From assembly GCA_900555795.1 (NCBI GenBank), contig USMP01000011.1, forward strand, positions 1-12,773: 12,773 bases of DNA, in the 5' to 3' direction. The position numbers and the translations under genes are program-made. Every line of letters starts with the position of its first letter. Position 1 is the stretch's first letter. The notes beneath the pieces were generated by a model. That model ran no database searches, was not told the origin of the DNA, and worked only from the letters and a program-made list of their open reading frames with translations. The stretch comes from an uncultured Eubacteriales bacterium. GTDB taxonomy: Bacteria > Bacillota > Clostridia > Oscillospirales > Oscillospiraceae. Below are positions 3,203-9,734 of this stretch, piece by piece.

Positions 3203-5047
3203 ATGTGTGGTATCGTTGGATATGTGGGCCGGGAGCAGGCAGCCCCTATTTTGCTGGAGGGCCTGAACAAACTGGAGTACCGGGGATATGACTCCGCCGG
3301 CGTGGCGGTGTACTCCCGGGAGGAGGGGAAACTCTCTGTCCACAAGGCCAAGGGGCGTCTGAAGGTTCTCAGCGACCTGCTTCAGGGCGGCAGCCTGGTG
3401 GAGGGCACCGTAGGCGTGGGCCACACCCGCTGGGCCACCCATGGAGCGCCGTCGGACGTAAATTCCCATCCCCAGGTCAGCCGCAGCGGCCGCATTGCCG
3501 TGGTTCACAACGGCATCATTGAGAACTATGCCGAACTGAAGGCATTTTTGCAGGAGCAGGGAGTTCCCTTCACGTCCGAGACGGACACGGAGGTGGTGGC
3601 CCAGCTGATCGAGTACTTCTATGAGACGGATCAGGTGGGGATCCTGGAGGCCGTGGGCCGCTGCCTGCGCCGTATCGAGGGGGCCTACGCCCTGGGCATT
3701 ATCTGCGCCGACGCGCCGGATGAGATCATCGCCGTGCGTAAGGACAGTCCCCTGATCCTGGGCTATGGGGAGGACTGCAACTTCCTGGCCAGTGACGTCA
3801 CCGCCATTATCCGCCATACCCGCAACGTCAGCTATATGGATGACGGGGAGGTGGCGGTGCTGACGCGGGAGGGCATTCAGTGCTACAACCACCTGATGCA
3901 GCCGATTGTCAAGGAGATCTGCCGGGTGGACTGGGAGGTAGACGCGGCGGAAAAGGGCGGCTACGAGCACTTTATGTTCAAGGAGATCATGGAGCAGCCC
4001 GAGGCGCTGCGCCGGTGCATTTTCCCCCGGATCCGGGGCGGCGAGGTGGTGCTGGACGGCTTCCGTATCAGCGACGACTACATTCGCGGCGTCAGCAAGT
4101 TTTATATTATCGCCTGCGGCTCCTCCTACCATGTGGGCATGATGGGCAAGTATAATCTGGAGCGGATCCTCCGCCGTCCGGTGGAGGTGGCGCTGGCGTC
4201 GGAGTTCCGGTACATGGACCCCATTGTAGATGAGCACACCATGGCCATTGTCATCAGCCAGTCCGGGGAGACGCTGGACACGCTGGCGGCCATGCGGGAG
4301 GCGAAGCGCCTGGGGGCCAGGATACTGTCCATTGTCAACGTGGTGGGCTCCTCTATCGCCCGGGAGAGCGACCAGGTGCTCTATACCTGGGCGGGGCCGG
4401 AGATCGCCGTGGCCACCACCAAGGCATTTTCCACCCAGCTGGCGGTCATTAACCTACTGGGTCTGTACCTGGCCCGGGTTCTGGGCACCATGGAGGATGG
4501 GGAGTACCGGCTGATTCAGGAGGAACTGCTGCGCCTGCCGGACAAGATCGAGGAGGTCTTGGCAAACAAGGACAGCATCCAGTACTATGCCAGCCAGTAT
4601 TTCAACCACAACAGCGTCTTTTTCATTGGCCGCAATGTGGACTATGCCCTGGGGATGGAGGGCTCCCTGAAGCTGAAGGAGATCTCCTATATCCACTCCG
4701 AGGCGTATGCCTCCGGGGAACTGAAGCACGGCACCATCAGCCTCATTGAGGAGGGCACGCTGGTGGTAGCGCTGGGCACCTACGCGAAGCTCTTCGACAA
4801 GGCGATGAGCAATATTGTGGAGGTCAAGGCCCGGGGCGGCGACGTGCTGGCGCTGACGACCGTGGATCACGGGGAGGAGATGGGAAAGGTGGCCAACGGC
4901 GTTGTGACCATCCCCCAGGCCCACCCCCTGCTGCTGCCCAGCCTGGGTATCATCCCCCTGCAGCTGTTTGCCTACTATGTGGCCCTGCTGCGCGGCTGCG
5001 ACATTGATAAGCCCCGGAATCTGGCAAAGTCCGTCACCGTGGAGTAG
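3203..5047 (+). CDS. glmS: Glutamine-fructose-6-phosphate aminotransferase (isomerizing), GlmS
   Basis: GlmS makes glucosamine-6-phosphate from fructose-6-phosphate and glutamine, the first step towards UDP-GlcNAc, peptidoglycan and other amino sugars. The protein is 614 residues, the usual size. The class II glutaminase domain begins MCGIVGYVG, so Cys2 becomes the N-terminal nucleophile; HTRWATHG (74-81) and HNGIIENY (102-109) are its other signatures. Two SIS domains follow: the first (~290-425) contains ACGSSYH, SQSGETLDT and ATTKAFSTQ, the second carries ELKHGTISLIEE. The C-terminus DKPRNLAKSVTVE is canonical. The start at 3203 follows AAGGAGG; a longer frame from 3029 would run through the ribozyme and remove the required N-terminal Cys, so it is wrong. 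The gene is controlled by the ribozyme in its leader. Confidence 0.99.
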   Translation: MCGIVGYVGREQAAPILLEGLNKLEYRGYDSAGVAVYSREEGKLSVHKAKGRLKVLSDLLQGGSLVEGTVGVGHTRWATHGAPSDVNSHPQVSRSGRIAVVHNGIIENYAELKAFLQEQGVPFTSETDTEVVAQLIEYFYETDQVGILEAVGRCLRRIEGAYALGIICADAPDEIIAVRKDSPLILGYGEDCNFLASDVTAIIRHTRNVSYMDDGEVAVLTREGIQCYNHLMQPIVKEICRVDWEVDAAEKGGYEHFMFKEIMEQPEALRRCIFPRIRGGEVVLDGFRISDDYIRGVSKFYIIACGSSYHVGMMGKYNLERILRRPVEVALASEFRYMDPIVDEHTMAIVISQSGETLDTLAAMREAKRLGARILSIVNVVGSSIARESDQVLYTWAGPEIAVATTKAFSTQLAVINLLGLYLARVLGTMEDGEYRLIQEELLRLPDKIEEVLANKDSIQYYASQYFNHNSVFFIGRNVDYALGMEGSLKLKEISYIHSEAYASGELKHGTISLIEEGTLVVALGTYAKLFDKAMSNIVEVKARGGDVLALTTVDHGEEMGKVANGVVTIPQAHPLLLPSLGIIPLQLFAYYVALLRGCDIDKPRNLAKSVTVE

Positions 5048-6785: not shown

Positions 6786-8030
6786 TTATGTGTCGGCGGA
6801 GGGGCCGTCCCCGGGAGGCGGGGGCGCGTCGGAAACCTCCCCGGGCAGTTCCCCGGGGAGAACTGTTCCGGCGGGGGGCTGATCGGCAGGCGGCTGGCTG
6901 GGCTCCTCCGCCGGTCCGCTGCCCTCGGGGACGGCCCCAGCGGGGGAATCCTCGGAAGCTGGGTTGTCGGGTGGCGCCGCCCCCGTCTCCGGCACGGTGG
7001 GAGTGGGAGGGGGAACGGCGGGGGTGCTCTCCTGTGTACCGGGGGTGTTCTCCTGTGTATCGGGGGCGCTTTCGGAATTCTCCGGCGCCTCCTGTTTGGC
7101 GGGGTCCTCCTCCGGCACCGCCGCCTCCTCCTGGGGGATGGATTCGCCGGGGGCGGGAAGCGTCAGAGGCGTATCTGTGCGGCTGTGGGTGGTGAAATAG
7201 GTATAGCCGTAGAACTGGTTCGGCTGAAGCAGTTCACCGTAGTAGTAGGCCATCAGTTCACTGACCGTCACAAGCTGATACCCCTGCTCCACCAGCCAGG
7301 GGACCAGCGTCCGCACCGCCTCCACGGTGCTTTCGTAGGTGCTGTGGAGCAGGACAATCTCGCCGTCCAGGCTGGCAAGGCCCTGCACATATTCCACCAC
7401 CTTGTCCGCGTCCCGGGAGAGCCAGTCCTGGGTGTCCACCGTCCAGGTGACAACGGAGCGGTTAGTGGCGTATTTTACAGCCTTGTTTACCGATCCGTAG
7501 GGGGGCCGAAGCAGGGTGGGCGCTGTTCCCGTGGCGGAGAGAAAGGCCTCGTCTGCCGCCTGCAGATCCTGCAAAATGGCACTTTTGCCGAGTTTGCCCA
7601 GATCACGATGGCTGTTGGAGTGGCTGCCTACCTCGCACCCCAGTTCCAGCATCCGGGGCAGGGCGTCGGGGCACTGGGCAATGCTGCGGCCTACCTCAAA
7701 GAAGGTGGCCACGCCGTGGTTTTCCTCCAGAATATCCAGGATCTGGTGGGAGTACACCGGGTGGGGGCCGTCGTCAAAGGTGAGGGCCACCATGGGCCCC
7801 GCCGGGTCGATGGTCCGGACATAGGGCTCCTCCGGCTCCGGTTCCGGCTTGGTTTCCGGGATCTGGGGGGGCGGCTCCTGCTGGTCCGGCTGTACCGCGC
7901 CGCCGGAGGGGATGACCGGGTCAGCTTTGGAGGCATCCTCCTCAGGCAGGGGTGCCGCCTGGCCCACACAGCCTGTCAGCAGGCAGGCGAGAAGGCAAAG
8001 AACGAGAAAAAGAGGGAGTAAACGATTCAT
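6786..8030 (-). CDS. Lipoprotein polysaccharide deacetylase (NodB domain) with long Pro/Glu-rich tail
   Basis: The N-terminus (MNRLLPLFLVLCLLACLLTGC) is a lipoprotein signal with lipobox LTGC, so Cys21 should be lipidated and the enzyme anchored outside the membrane. After a Pro/Glu linker, the NodB domain (~79-261) shows TFDDGPHP (Asp86 putative base, Asp87 metal ligand), HSNSH (His137 and His141, metal ligands), RPPYG, TVDTQDW and LLHS. This is a complete carbohydrate-esterase-4 motif set, with Ser in place of the common Asp after the last His. The likely substrate is N-acetylated cell-wall sugar; whether GlcNAc or MurNAc cannot be told. Residues ~290-414 are a low-complexity Pro/Glu/Ser/Thr tail, unusual in lying C-terminal to the catalytic domain. 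GTG at 8033 is an alternative start with better spacing to AAGGA. Confidence 0.93.
   Translation of the reverse strand: MNRLLPLFLVLCLLACLLTGCVGQAAPLPEEDASKADPVIPSGGAVQPDQQEPPPQIPETKPEPEPEEPYVRTIDPAGPMVALTFDDGPHPVYSHQILDILEENHGVATFFEVGRSIAQCPDALPRMLELGCEVGSHSNSHRDLGKLGKSAILQDLQAADEAFLSATGTAPTLLRPPYGSVNKAVKYATNRSVVTWTVDTQDWLSRDADKVVEYVQGLASLDGEIVLLHSTYESTVEAVRTLVPWLVEQGYQLVTVSELMAYYYGELLQPNQFYGYTYFTTHSRTDTPLTLPAPGESIPQEEAAVPEEDPAKQEAPENSESAPDTQENTPGTQESTPAVPPPTPTVPETGAAPPDNPASEDSPAGAVPEGSGPAEEPSQPPADQPPAGTVLPGELPGEVSDAPPPPGDGPSADT
7020..7061 (-). repeat. Tandem 21-base repeat in the deacetylase tail
   Basis: Two adjacent 21-base units (7020-7040 and 7041-7061) differ at two positions. They encode the heptads TQENTPG and TQESTPA-like of the tail. 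This suggests the tail length can change by slippage or unequal exchange. Confidence 0.75.
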
Positions 8031-8065
8031 CACAGGGACTTCCTTCGACAGTATTTGACGAATCC

Positions 8066-8094
8066 ATTATCCCCTGGAAGGCGGGAGAAAGCAA
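8066..8094 (-). promoter_or_regulatory. Sigma-A promoter for the deacetylase gene
   Basis: On the minus strand TTGCTT (8094-8089) and GATAAT (8071-8066) are 17 bases apart, placing the transcript start about 30 bases before the start codon. Confidence 0.7.
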
Positions 8095-8116
8095 GTGGAA
8101 AACGGTAACAGTTTGG

Positions 8117-8131
8117 GTAACAAATTGTTAC
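8117..8131. promoter_or_regulatory. Palindrome, possible regulator site upstream of the deacetylase promoter
   Basis: GTAACAA-A-TTGTTAC is a perfect 7+7 inverted repeat. A further half-site GTAACA lies at 8105-8110. It is centred about 33 bases upstream of the deacetylase -35 box. The symmetry suggests binding of a dimeric regulator, but no regulator gene is next to it. It also sits at the left edge of the phage remnant. Confidence 0.4.
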
Positions 8132-8138
8132 AGGGCCT

Positions 8139-8226
8139 TTCCGCGCGAAGAACATGCAGGAGGAGCGCCGGCTGCCGGGATTTTCCGAAGGCCTTCCCAT
8201 AGACACAGATGGATAAGAGAAGATAA
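8139..8226 (+). pseudogene. Decayed 3' end of a phage tail-chaperone-like gene (copy A)
   Basis: This aligns to copy B (8935-9039). Its last 52 bases up to the TAA differ at about ten positions. Compared with B, a net loss of about 17 bases after the FR-x-KN codons shifts the frame, and the Trp codon of the AFAW motif has become TAG (8200-8202). The register ends in DKRR-stop where B has DERR-stop. It is not a working gene. Confidence 0.7.
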
Positions 8227-8257
8227 AAAACCGCCGACCGGACATGGGCGGCGGGGG
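8216..8257. repeat. Direct repeat, copy A (partner at 9029-9070)
   Basis: These 42 bases are repeated at 9029-9070 with a single difference (A8237 versus C9050). They span the end of the chaperone frame, its stop codon and the terminator hairpin. The separation of 813 bases brackets cassette A, tape measure A and the chaperone B fragment. Confidence 0.9.
8225..8254 (-). terminator. Intrinsic terminator of small gene A
   Basis: On the minus strand a 9-position stem (CCGCCGCCC with GGTCGGCGG, one mismatch) and six-base loop is followed by TTTTTT. It begins six bases after the stop codon of small gene A. The T run lies across the TAA of the chaperone A fragment on the other strand. Confidence 0.8.
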
Positions 8258-8259
8258 AG

Positions 8260-8400
8260 TCAAAGCATACAGAATAAAAACAAAAGCAAAAAGGGAAGTG
8301 TAACCAATCCAAAGACCCAAAAGATCGTTTTTGTGGATCTATCCCAAAACGGGGCTTTTTTTGCATCACGGAAGGATTTGTCCAGTTCAGAAAACGTCAT
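8260..8400 (-). CDS. Small single-span membrane protein A (46 aa), moron-like cassette gene
   Basis: The frame runs from ATG at 8400 to TGA at 8260-8262. The N-terminal ~25 residues are charged and amphipathic (MTFSELDKSFRDAKKAPFWD). The rest is a single hydrophobic span of about 20 residues (IFWVFGLVTLPFLLLFLFCML), ending at the C-terminus. A sigma-A promoter lies 28 bases upstream and an intrinsic terminator six bases downstream, so this is a complete transcription unit, which is the main argument that it is real. The ribosome binding site is weak (AAAGGTG, about 12 bases away). It is AT-rich relative to its surroundings. I recognise no family. Superinfection exclusion, lysis control or a membrane toxin are possible; none is shown. 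Confidence 0.65.
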   Translation of the reverse strand: MTFSELDKSFRDAKKAPFWDRSTKTIFWVFGLVTLPFLLLFLFCML

Positions 8401-8427
8401 AAGCGAACACCACACCTTTCAAAACCT

Positions 8428-8455
8428 ATTATAGCATATTTTTGCAAATCGTCAA
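8428..8455 (-). promoter_or_regulatory. Sigma-A promoter of small gene A
   Basis: On the minus strand TTGACG (8455-8450), a 16-base spacer and a consensus TATAAT (8433-8428) preceded by TGC form a strong extended -10 promoter. The -35 box overlaps the first bases of the tape-measure ribosome binding site AAGGAGG (8454-8460) on the plus strand. Confidence 0.85.
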
Positions 8456-8467
8456 GGAGGGGAATGC

Positions 8468-8893
8468 ATGCCAGAAGTAGGAATTGTCATGACTTTGCGG
8501 GATCGTATGTCCAACACCATGAAGTCAATGATAAACTCCGGCAAGGCTCTGAGCAAGGAGTTCGACGATCTGCTTGACCGTGTGACCGCCACGGAAAATC
8601 AGCAGGCCGCCCTGGCGAAGGCCCTTGCCAAAACAAAAACAGCCATTGCGGATCAGACCGATGTGGTCAAAGCATCGGAAAAAGCGTGGAAGACACTGCG
8701 AAAGGAAAAGGGCGCCTCCGCTCAGGATATTGCAGAAAAAGCGGATGCCTACCACGCAGAATCTGAGAAGCTGGAGGCGCTGAGGAATCAGCTGAACGAG
8801 TACACGCTAGCGTCCAAGGACGCCCGCCAGGAAATGAAGGAGAAGCTGAGCGGGTTCCGGCAGAACACCCTCAAAGAAGTAAAAAACGGCTAG
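8468..8893 (+). pseudogene. N-terminal fragment of a phage tail tape-measure protein (copy A)
   Basis: The 141-residue frame begins MPEVGIVMTLRDRMSNTMKS, the kind of opening seen in tail tape-measure proteins. It continues as a long charged coiled coil (residues ~30-135, rich in Ala, Lys, Glu and Gln). Tape-measure proteins usually exceed 600 residues, so this is the amino-terminal stub. AAGGAGG at 8454-8460 gives a good start. It ends at a TAG (8891) just before sequence that reads as the 3' end of a tail-chaperone-like gene in another frame, so a deletion joined two tail genes near 8880-8895. The stub could still be translated. Confidence 0.7.
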
Positions 8894-9039
8894 AGGAGGG
8901 GAGCGACCCGGACCTCTCCCTCCTGTACTGGCTCTTCCGCGTGAAGAACATCCCGCCCTGGGAGGTCTGCGAGCAGAGCCGCGGATACCGGGATCTTCTG
9001 GAGGCCTTCGCCTGGGCACAGATTGACGAGAGAAGATAA
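8894..9039 (+). pseudogene. C-terminal fragment of a phage tail-chaperone-like gene (copy B)
   Basis: In the frame ending at TAA 9037-9039 the sequence reads LSLLYWLFRVKNIPPWEV and continues to EAFAWAQIDERR-stop, a clean protein-like segment with no start of its own. It resembles C-termini of small phage proteins encoded just before the tape measure (tail assembly chaperone type). That identity is inferred from position and look. Copy A at 8139-8226 is a decayed relative. The upstream part has been replaced by the tape-measure A stub. Confidence 0.6.
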
Positions 9040-9070
9040 AAAACCGCCGCCCGGACATGGGCGGCGGGGG
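9029..9070. repeat. Direct repeat, copy B (partner at 8216-8257)
   Basis: Same 42 bases as copy A with one difference, covering the chaperone stop codon and the minus-strand terminator. In this copy the hairpin stem is perfect. Confidence 0.9.
9038..9067 (-). terminator. Intrinsic terminator of small gene B
   Basis: On the minus strand a perfect 9-bp stem (CCGCCGCCC with GGGCGGCGG) with loop ATGTCC is followed by TTTTTT. It starts eight bases after the stop of small gene B and overlaps the stop codon of chaperone fragment B on the plus strand. Confidence 0.9.
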
Positions 9071-9074
9071 GAGA

Positions 9075-9176
9075 TTAGTACACAAGCAGTGCTAAGAATA
9101 TCGGGATCGAAAAAACAAAAAGGATTGCTAAGATGAGTTTAATATACCCGGGCATTTCATCAAATTTATGTTCCAT
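9075..9176 (-). CDS. Small single-span membrane protein B (33 aa), moron-like cassette gene
   Basis: The frame runs from ATG at 9176 to TAA at 9075-9077. Residues 1-10 (MEHKFDEMPG) are polar; residues ~11-33 are almost all hydrophobic (KLILAILFVFSIPIFLALLV), one membrane span reaching the C-terminus. GGGGG at 9191-9187 lies ten bases before the ATG as a G-rich ribosome binding site. A strong promoter is at 9229-9202 and a perfect terminator eight bases after the stop. The sequence is not similar to small protein A beyond its size and single C-terminal span. I recognise no family. AT-richness contrasts with the flanking chromosome. Confidence 0.65.
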   Translation of the reverse strand: MEHKFDEMPGYIKLILAILFVFSIPIFLALLVY

Positions 9177-9201
9177 GCCTACGCATCCCCCTTTTATTTA
9201 A

Positions 9202-9229
9202 AGTATACCACAAACAAAATTTTTGTCAA
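9202..9229 (-). promoter_or_regulatory. Sigma-A promoter of small gene B
   Basis: On the minus strand a consensus TTGACA (9229-9224), a 16-base spacer and TATACT (9207-9202) preceded by TGG. As in copy A, the -35 box shares its first bases with the tape-measure ribosome binding site AAGGAGG (9228-9234) of the other strand. Confidence 0.9.
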
Positions 9230-9241
9230 GGAGGCGCTGCC

Positions 9242-9289
9242 ATGCCTGAAAGCAGGGGCCGTGCCGCATATCCAGCTTGCGGCGATTAA
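9242..9289 (+). pseudogene. Stub of a second tape-measure start (copy B)
   Basis: AAGGAGG at 9228-9234 and ATG at 9242 match the tape-measure A start in spacing and in the first codons (MPE), but the frame stops after 15 residues. In the next frame the bases read CLKAGAVPHIQLAAIKKTPG and stop at about 9323; I cannot assign that segment. This is the right edge of the recognisable phage remnant. Bases 9290-9374 show nothing else I can support. Confidence 0.5.
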
Positions 9290-9374
9290 AAAAACGCCTG
9301 GAAGAGCGGGGGCGGTGAACGGATGAGAACCGGCTGCGGGGCGGCTGCAAGCAGTCTGATCAGGCGGAAAATTG

Positions 9375-9734
9375 CTACAGGGCCTGCTCCCGCTCCTCTT
9401 GGTGGGGGGGCTTGTGGGCGGCAAACCACAGATTCCATTGAAAGGAGTAGGCCCGCCAGGCCTCCTGGCCGGCGCAGCGGATGGAAAGGCGCTGCACCTG
9501 GGGGTGGTCGTAGAGGAAGTCCACCGCCGCGCGCAGCACGGCGTGAGCTGTCCGCCCGGGCTCCAACCCCAGGGCGGCGGGGTCGGCGCAGGTGATGGAC
9601 AGCTGCACCGACCCCTGGTTCAGCGCCGCGGTCAGCTGGGAGATGTAGCCCTGGGCCAGGGCCTCCGCCGAGGCGGGCCTGGGGGGGATGGCCGCCGGCC
9701 GCTCCGCCAGCAGCAGTTCCACTTTTTCCGTCAT
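9375..9734 (-). CDS. Hypothetical protein, 119 aa, third gene of the amidohydrolase operon
   Basis: The ATG at 9734 lies one base after the stop of the preceding gene (TGATATG), with GAGGAA about eight bases upstream, so the two are translationally coupled; a longer frame from 9794 would overlap that gene. The protein is soluble. Its second half (TAHAVLRAAVDFLYDHPQVQRLSIRC) has the helix-strand pattern seen near the end of macro domains, which bind ADP-ribose. The glycine-rich ligand loops of a full macro domain are not visible, so this is at best a partial likeness. Function unknown. No clear terminator follows it. Confidence 0.65.
   Translation of the reverse strand: MTEKVELLLAERPAAIPPRPASAEALAQGYISQLTAALNQGSVQLSITCADPAALGLEPGRTAHAVLRAAVDFLYDHPQVQRLSIRCAGQEAWRAYSFQWNLWFAAHKPPHQEEREQAL

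Follow-up and report, generated by a model that had tools for sequence, protein, structure and literature searches.

The closest described counterpart of the locus reported here is found in phage HK97, whose gp15 is described as a superinfection-exclusion protein. In the HK97 record, gp15 is annotated as a moron product and is located between frameshifted gp14 and the tape measure gp16. Reversed morons exist as well, since HK97 gp23, named “reverse moron product,” is one. The membrane-associated proteins Ltp of TP-J34 and Sie2009 of Tuc2009, both from prophages of Gram-positive hosts, are described as blocking DNA injection, and the tape measure is implicated in the case of Ltp; gp15 and Ltp are assigned to phages with non-contractile tails (PMC10883804). 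Defences described as acting on tail or tape measure proteins include SNIPE, which is membrane-bound, and Tai, whose homologues are reported mostly from phage moron loci (PMC13190303, PMC11364771).

The locus analysed here lies in a chromosomal stretch of 12,773 nt (contig USMP01000011.1), hereafter called the window, from an uncultured Eubacteriales bacterium of gut Clostridium type. About 1.2 kb of phage tail DNA is flanked there by a polysaccharide deacetylase gene (PF01522) and by a host gene for a 139-aa protein. The nearest relative found for the deacetylase gene is that of Candidatus Pelethomonas intestinigallinarum (74% identity), and in the relative L001 both host genes are 94 nt apart without an insert, the second gene being 43% identical. 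The 17-nt direct repeat around the remnant (Table 1) may be an attachment-site scar or a copied insertion. About 80 nt (9290–9368), with an A7 run among them, separate the right repeat from the second tape-measure start.

A chaperone/tape-measure junction in two copies had been described here in a first-pass annotation. Its duplicated character is borne out, and the window reads as two tandem slot pieces, in which the order of chaperone end, reverse cassette and tape-measure start occurs twice. One part of that description has to be revised: the 141-aa tape-measure ORF is a fusion, which from about 8838 onward is the end of the second chaperone. Because of this fusion, the copies are taken as tandem slot pieces, each with truncated neighbours; the boundary between the tape-measure piece of copy 1 and the chaperone piece is approximate. 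At the DNA level, the chaperone ends of the two copies form a repeat of 84% identity that continues through the terminator (D1) and another of 86% (D3). A −1 shift at the slippery heptamer would give the extension RLEEGSDPD...QIDERR, and the corresponding site in relatives, where recognised, is AAAAAAC or AAAAAAA. The tape-measure start of copy 2 resembles that of copy 1 in the first few residues only. We infer that the two cassettes of the window are survivors of two decayed tail operons.

Table 1. Features read or predicted in the remnant, in window coordinates (promoter matches are given out of 12).
Feature	Position	Strand	Remark
17-nt direct repeat, left copy	8122..8138	.	16/17 identical; brackets whole remnant
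Copy 1 tail assembly chaperone, frame-broken 3′ end	8134..8226	+	Repeats with copy 2; broken in three-frame translation
Cassette 1 intrinsic terminator	8231..8254	−	T run 8225–8230
Cassette 1 cargo gene, 46 aa	8260..8400	−	Short N-terminal helix and one C-terminal membrane span
Cassette 1 promoter, TTGACG-16-TATAAT, TG before −10	8428..8455	−	11/12; −35 abuts tape-measure ribosome-binding site
Copy 1 tape measure protein, N-terminal piece	8468..8831	+	Aligns over 132 aa with intact L125, 50% identity
Copy 2 chaperone, zero-frame end	8838..8893	+	Fused in frame after copy 1 tape-measure piece; blastn against chaperone regions of relatives
Slippery heptamer A AAA AAC, chaperone frameshift	8881..8887	+	Sequence reading
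Copy 2 chaperone, −1 frame extension, open to stop	8887..9039	+	Weak match to phrog_2722, E 0.001
Cassette 2 intrinsic terminator	9044..9067	−	Hairpin and T run
Cassette 2 cargo gene, 33 aa	9075..9176	−	One membrane span
Cassette 2 promoter, TTGACA-16-TATACT, TG before −10	9202..9229	−	11/12
Copy 2 second tape measure gene, first codons	9242..9289	+	15 codons, then stop
17-nt direct repeat, right copy	9369..9385	.	3′ end of host 139-aa gene

Each slot piece had also been said to hold a minus-strand unit made of an extended −10 promoter, an AT-rich ORF for a single-span protein of 46 or 33 aa, and a terminator, with borders matching between the copies and proteins that differ. All of this was recovered at the places proposed. 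A scan of both strands of positions 8030–9420 gave two promoter-like sites (shuffle mean 0.8), each of them on the minus strand at an expected place. The terminator scan lists 9044–9067 alone, 8231–8254 being missed because of one stem mismatch, and since this single match is below the shuffle mean of 2.4, the assignment of the window terminators is based on their position and on relatives, not on the scan count. The G+C content is 0.38 for the 46-aa cargo gene and 0.34 for the 33-aa one, against 0.62 for the window and 0.54–0.59 for the adjoining phage genes. The borders of the two copies correspond over 95 nt at 84% identity on the terminator side and over 26 nt at 77% on the promoter and ribosome-binding-site side, while the two cargos fall into separate sequence clusters. 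AlphaFold2, run on the single sequence of the 46-aa cargo, gave helices at residues 4–14 and 22–45 with a mean pLDDT of 80, a predicted fold amounting to a short helix plus a span.

Intact relatives were obtained by several routes. The 141-aa piece had matches in 20 of 400 genomes, and profile searches had matches in 25 of 394 and 43 of 400 genomes, the latter in the same family sample as the 20 of 400; the weakest genome matches in these searches are not this tape measure. The first intact relatives came from a whole-genome search together with promoter-border patterns, and two of them then led to a few more viral contigs. Of the viral stretches found by promoter-border patterns, 5 of 56 and 12 of 37 were at a tape-measure start (the 12 include the same 5); in genomes, the promoter pattern gave 27 sites (control 3), eight at a tape-measure start and 19 elsewhere. 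The terminator-side DNA border was discarded as a diagnostic, as its five viral matches all turned out on inspection to be chance. In L125, the best relative, the tape measure has 701 aa and a TMP_3 domain (PF20155) and is accompanied by an XkdM-type tube (PF09393) and an XkdN-type chaperone (PF08890); the gap of L125 contains a reverse gene for a 44-aa single-span protein with promoter and terminator. No close relatives of the tape-measure and chaperone pieces of the window were found by peptide patterns in viral and genome contigs or among phage and plasmid records. Likewise, the tape-measure N-terminus and the cargo of L029 had no match in phage records, and the full L125 tape measure had 105 matches there, all below 60% identity and none covering 80%.

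In these relatives, the slot is the gap that separates the tape measure gene from the XkdN-type tail chaperone with its frameshift. From 78 deduplicated rows, 53 loci were chosen for a census, which comprises 25 filled and 28 empty slots; the gap is −8 to 64 nt long in the empty ones (n = 28), where the two genes abut, and 195–707 nt in the filled ones whose ends are both known (n = 20). Where one tape measure gave a second hit, the latter was omitted, as were near-identical copies (L028, L101), a locus with only 20 nt upstream (L133) and weak matches (L066, L067, L197, L209), and the window and L196 were handled separately. A reverse promoter matching 10–12 of 12 positions, with its −35 element within 20 nt of the tape-measure start, is present in 23/25 filled and 0/28 empty slots (Fisher p 4.8e-13), or 0/30 when L182 and L188, omitted with promoter absent and chaperone end unrecognised, are counted as empty. 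Among shuffled windows, 233 of 5000 have such an in-register promoter. Seven loci (L125, L139, L142, L146, L147, L157, and L165) were found only via a pattern demanding the promoter, which makes their inclusion circular; when they are left out, 16 of 18 filled slots have it (p 1.5e-10). The two filled slots without an in-register promoter, L208 and L177, both have a displaced one; for L208, the probable cause is that the tape measure really begins at an ATT codon further upstream.

A reverse ORF is listed in 23 of the 25 filled slots; L052 has no ORF past the ribosome-site filter, and L044 runs off its contig. When ORFs with a ribosome-binding site are compared for length, the minus strand has the longest in 19 of 20 gaps, and the exception, L043, has a weaker site. 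Terminators are listed in 20 filled slots, the others being L052, L039, L165, L038, and L044, and a chaperone end was recognised in all but five (L052, L075, L165, L044, and L207). Where both ends and a terminator are available (18 slots), the T run starts no more than 5 nt from the chaperone stop in 12 cases and the terminator lies 19–220 nt from it in the remaining six. In those 12, with the −35 element against the tape-measure ribosome-binding site and the T run near the chaperone stop, the predicted transcript therefore fills the gap and enters no tail gene. The longest gap, 707 nt in L124, has one 127-aa ORF and about 220 nt past its terminator.

Three marks of a moron are found at this position. 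An extra gene is present in 25 relatives and absent in 28, its own promoter and terminator accompany it in 23/25 and 20/25 filled slots and in each window copy, and the base composition of the window cargos is unlike that of their neighbours. The census and the shuffles rule out a chance origin of the slot pattern. On genomic grounds, these data establish that, in gut Clostridia prophages of the XkdN/XkdM type, the gap preceding the tape measure gene is a moron slot. Intact relatives devoid of ORF, promoter and terminator had been named as the outcome that would overturn the first-pass reading, and it withstood that comparison, with 25 of 53 slots filled and the ORF, promoter and terminator present in the numbers given above. 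We are close to certain that a slot with exchangeable reverse cassettes is real.

The cargo is highly diverse. The 32 proteins form 18 clusters (blastp E <1e-3), and at least one membrane span is predicted by hydropathy in 31 of them. Usually, the cargo is a membrane protein of 25–133 aa whose gene stands behind the promoter and ahead of the terminator, and a slot mostly holds one reverse cassette and sometimes two. L177 is an exception, as its 189-aa cargo has repeated coiled-coil heptads and no span, with the promoter 53 nt from the tape-measure start. The largest cluster has nine proteins of 59–133 aa, most of which share a C-terminal WAVWASxPPK-like stretch. Two of ten scanned cargos match PHROG 28591, namely the 129-aa one of L029 (E 2.6e-15) and, weakly, that of L145 (6.5e-5); the window cargos do not match this family. 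In a search of 5.8 billion proteins, none met the word criterion of the search for the 46-aa cargo and one candidate was returned for the L029 cargo. None of ten cargos tested matches the defence models of PADLOC.

Comparison of related slots illustrates the exchange, which is direct in one pair. The viral contigs L142 and L165 have tape-measure N-termini that are 96.9% identical and cargos that are unrelated: DNA identity is 98–100% in the tape measure and 85% through the promoter border, beyond which none is evident. Similarly, the tape-measure N-termini of L039 and L075 are 95% identical and their cargos 32%. By alignment, such pairs demonstrate that the cargo is swapped as a block and turns over faster than the flanking tail genes, while tape measure and promoter stay. 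The earlier proposal of a moron slot with exchangeable cargo is upheld because the cargo differs between slots, even between two whose tape-measure N-termini share 97% identity. In six homologous cargo pairs with finite dS above 1, dN/dS is 0.2–0.4, rough values because dS is near saturation; such ratios in diverged pairs are as expected of protein-coding genes. In five closer pairs, dN/dS is about 0.2, 0.55–0.65 (two pairs), 0.9 (the tandem paralogues L165a/b) and 1.0, and with 0.55–1.0 in four of the five, selection on the cargo protein is therefore not uniform.

There are stacked and isolated cassettes, too. L142 and L165 have two reverse ORFs with spans apiece. A defective prophage, L196 (G212:C1:2014500-2021500), read on the minus strand, has an open chaperone followed by five open antisense cassettes. 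Three truncated tape-measure starts, which differ in type, are interspersed among the cassettes, and what appears by eye to be a tape-measure C-terminal piece comes last. Of the five cassettes, two share 97% and 94% identity with those of L142, and another belongs to the L165 family. At 1067–711 of the same minus-strand reading, a further reverse gene of about 95 aa is located upstream of the tail tube gene; its product resembles small antitoxin-type proteins by eye, and it is possibly a second reverse slot. In genome G080 (L216/L239; L239 is G080:C6:36500-43500, about 3312–4000), a lone slot made of a chaperone end, a 59-aa cassette and about 40 tape-measure codons is flanked by mutY-like and sigma-70-type genes. 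This lone slot is also found on viral contig L146, and G080 carries an intact copy elsewhere in its genome.

Superinfection exclusion at the DNA-entry step is the most likely role of the cargo, favoured by slightly better than an even chance from the position and form of the cassettes. The strong reverse promoters would allow the lysogen to make the cargo at a time when the late operon is not expressed, and the small protein would be located in the cell membrane. There it could interfere when the DNA of related phages enters through the membrane, a step served by tape measure proteins, acting like HK97 gp15 from the same slot, and an arms race with the tape measures of incoming phages would account for the diversity of cargo. 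The step targeted may not be the same, since gp15 and Ltp belong to phages with non-contractile tails whereas L196 adjoins a sheath-like gene (recognised by eye). Taken as a whole, the explanation that the cassettes are exchangeable reverse morons whose cargo blocks DNA entry of related phages is fairly probable.

Other roles were weighed against it. The cassettes might work through transcription, with the reverse promoter over the tape-measure ribosome-binding site repressing the late operon in the lysogen and the ORFs being incidental. The −35 element indeed touches this site in 23 of 25 filled slots, but the predicted transcript of a single cassette does not leave the gap and runs antisense to none of the tail genes, the ORFs have ribosome-binding sites and spans as well as dN/dS of 0.2–0.4 in diverged pairs, and 28 of the 53 slots counted lack the promoter; this reading is highly improbable. 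Cargos of 25–60 aa that are hydrophobic with one span, of which there are many, would suit type I toxin-antitoxin modules, in which small hydrophobic toxins and antisense RNAs hold the prophage in place. The plus-strand promoter called for by such modules, at 10/12 or better, occurs in only one of 20 gaps, about the shuffled rate of 41/1000, an Rfam scan of window positions 8000–9500 gave no match, and two-span cargos of 127–133 aa do not fit, so that this reading is very unlikely. Modification of the host other than phage exclusion, such as stress, membrane or surface properties, tail-particle immunity or lysis timing, would accommodate the diversity of cargo with coiled-coil L177 included; tape-measure adjacency and rapid turnover better suit a contest between phages, and we consider it unlikely.

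A separate question is why the cassettes outlast their phages. That the phage genes of the window are broken and its small units intact had been noted before as a hint of selection. The observation holds and extends to relatives: the cassettes are open in L196 (five), G080 (one) and the window (two), while the tape-measure starts beside them are truncated in 6/6 cases. The part of that claim concerning selection is no more than suggestive. When the middle of the tape measure served as a control query, a search in which short pieces may fall below the E-value limit, 42/42 match rows were in open frames of at least 330 aa. The family sample has four truncated starts (three in G212, one in G080) against none in the control, a comparison of small numbers in which the G080 start was found via the promoter pattern only and the third G212 start by eye only. 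Together, open cassettes beside truncated tape measures suggest that cassettes are retained by the host after phage loss. There is nevertheless almost an even chance that the intact cassettes of the window survived prophage decay by luck, with no benefit to the host, which would be compatible with the best explanation of the slot itself. Small genes are hit less often, and the few remnants known were all found by searching for the slot. Other short tape-measure frames also exist, the profile search having listed them in G215, G013, G139, G204, G059, and G288; that of G215 has no promoter or cassette. Against mere luck stand the 6/6 truncated starts and the 42/42 rows of the control. A bolder and distinctly unlikely idea is that cassettes are kept and stacked by hosts to form a heritable exclusion library, in which every one protects from phages with matching entry machinery. 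The slot would be retained, or captured alone, after decay, and slots of different phages would pile up, an equally doubtful scheme. If it applied, which we doubt to the same degree, the two slots of the window, the G212 array with five cassettes and tape-measure starts of three phage types, and the lone slot of G080 would be examples.

For practical purposes, a positional rule follows: a reverse-strand reading of the gap that precedes the tape measure gene gives access to a reservoir of tiny membrane proteins. Standard resources may miss these proteins, as PADLOC recognised 0/10 and the 46-aa cargo drew none of the 5.8 billion proteins. If cargos exclude phages, gut Clostridia would offer a large panel of tape-measure-linked exclusion proteins, natural swap pairs like L142/L165 would help to find what each recognises, and there would be a way to ask whether bacteria keep exclusion genes after phage loss.

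Among the known systems, Ltp and Sie2009 are encoded elsewhere in the genome, and Ltp, unlike the cargos, is a surface lipoprotein. The SNIPE and Tai proteins are larger than the slot cargos, and their mechanisms differ from the one proposed here. PHROG 28591, matched by the L029 and, weakly, the L145 cargo, has no function or slot recorded. HK97 gp23 is similarly a reverse moron with its own terminator in the tail operon, but occupies another slot, between an I-like gene and J. The slot had at first been regarded as undescribed. The literature search, with subscription papers mostly outside its coverage, indeed returned no account of it in Clostridia phages, but HK97 gp15 occupies the same place, flanked by gp14, the chaperone with a −1 frameshift, and by gp16, the tape measure. 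Like the cargos, of which 31/32 are small membrane proteins by hydropathy, gp15 is small; its N-terminus resembles a membrane span, and a terminator is annotated behind its gene. It differs in being on the strand of the tail operon, whereas the cassettes here are on the reverse strand, in the N-terminal location of its span, in phage class and host, and in being one cargo against 18 clusters. Convincing homology between gp15 and the 32 cargos was not detected (best E 0.019 over 17 residues). A moron slot at this position was known before from HK97 gp15, and what is new is the variant with reverse, diverse cassettes.
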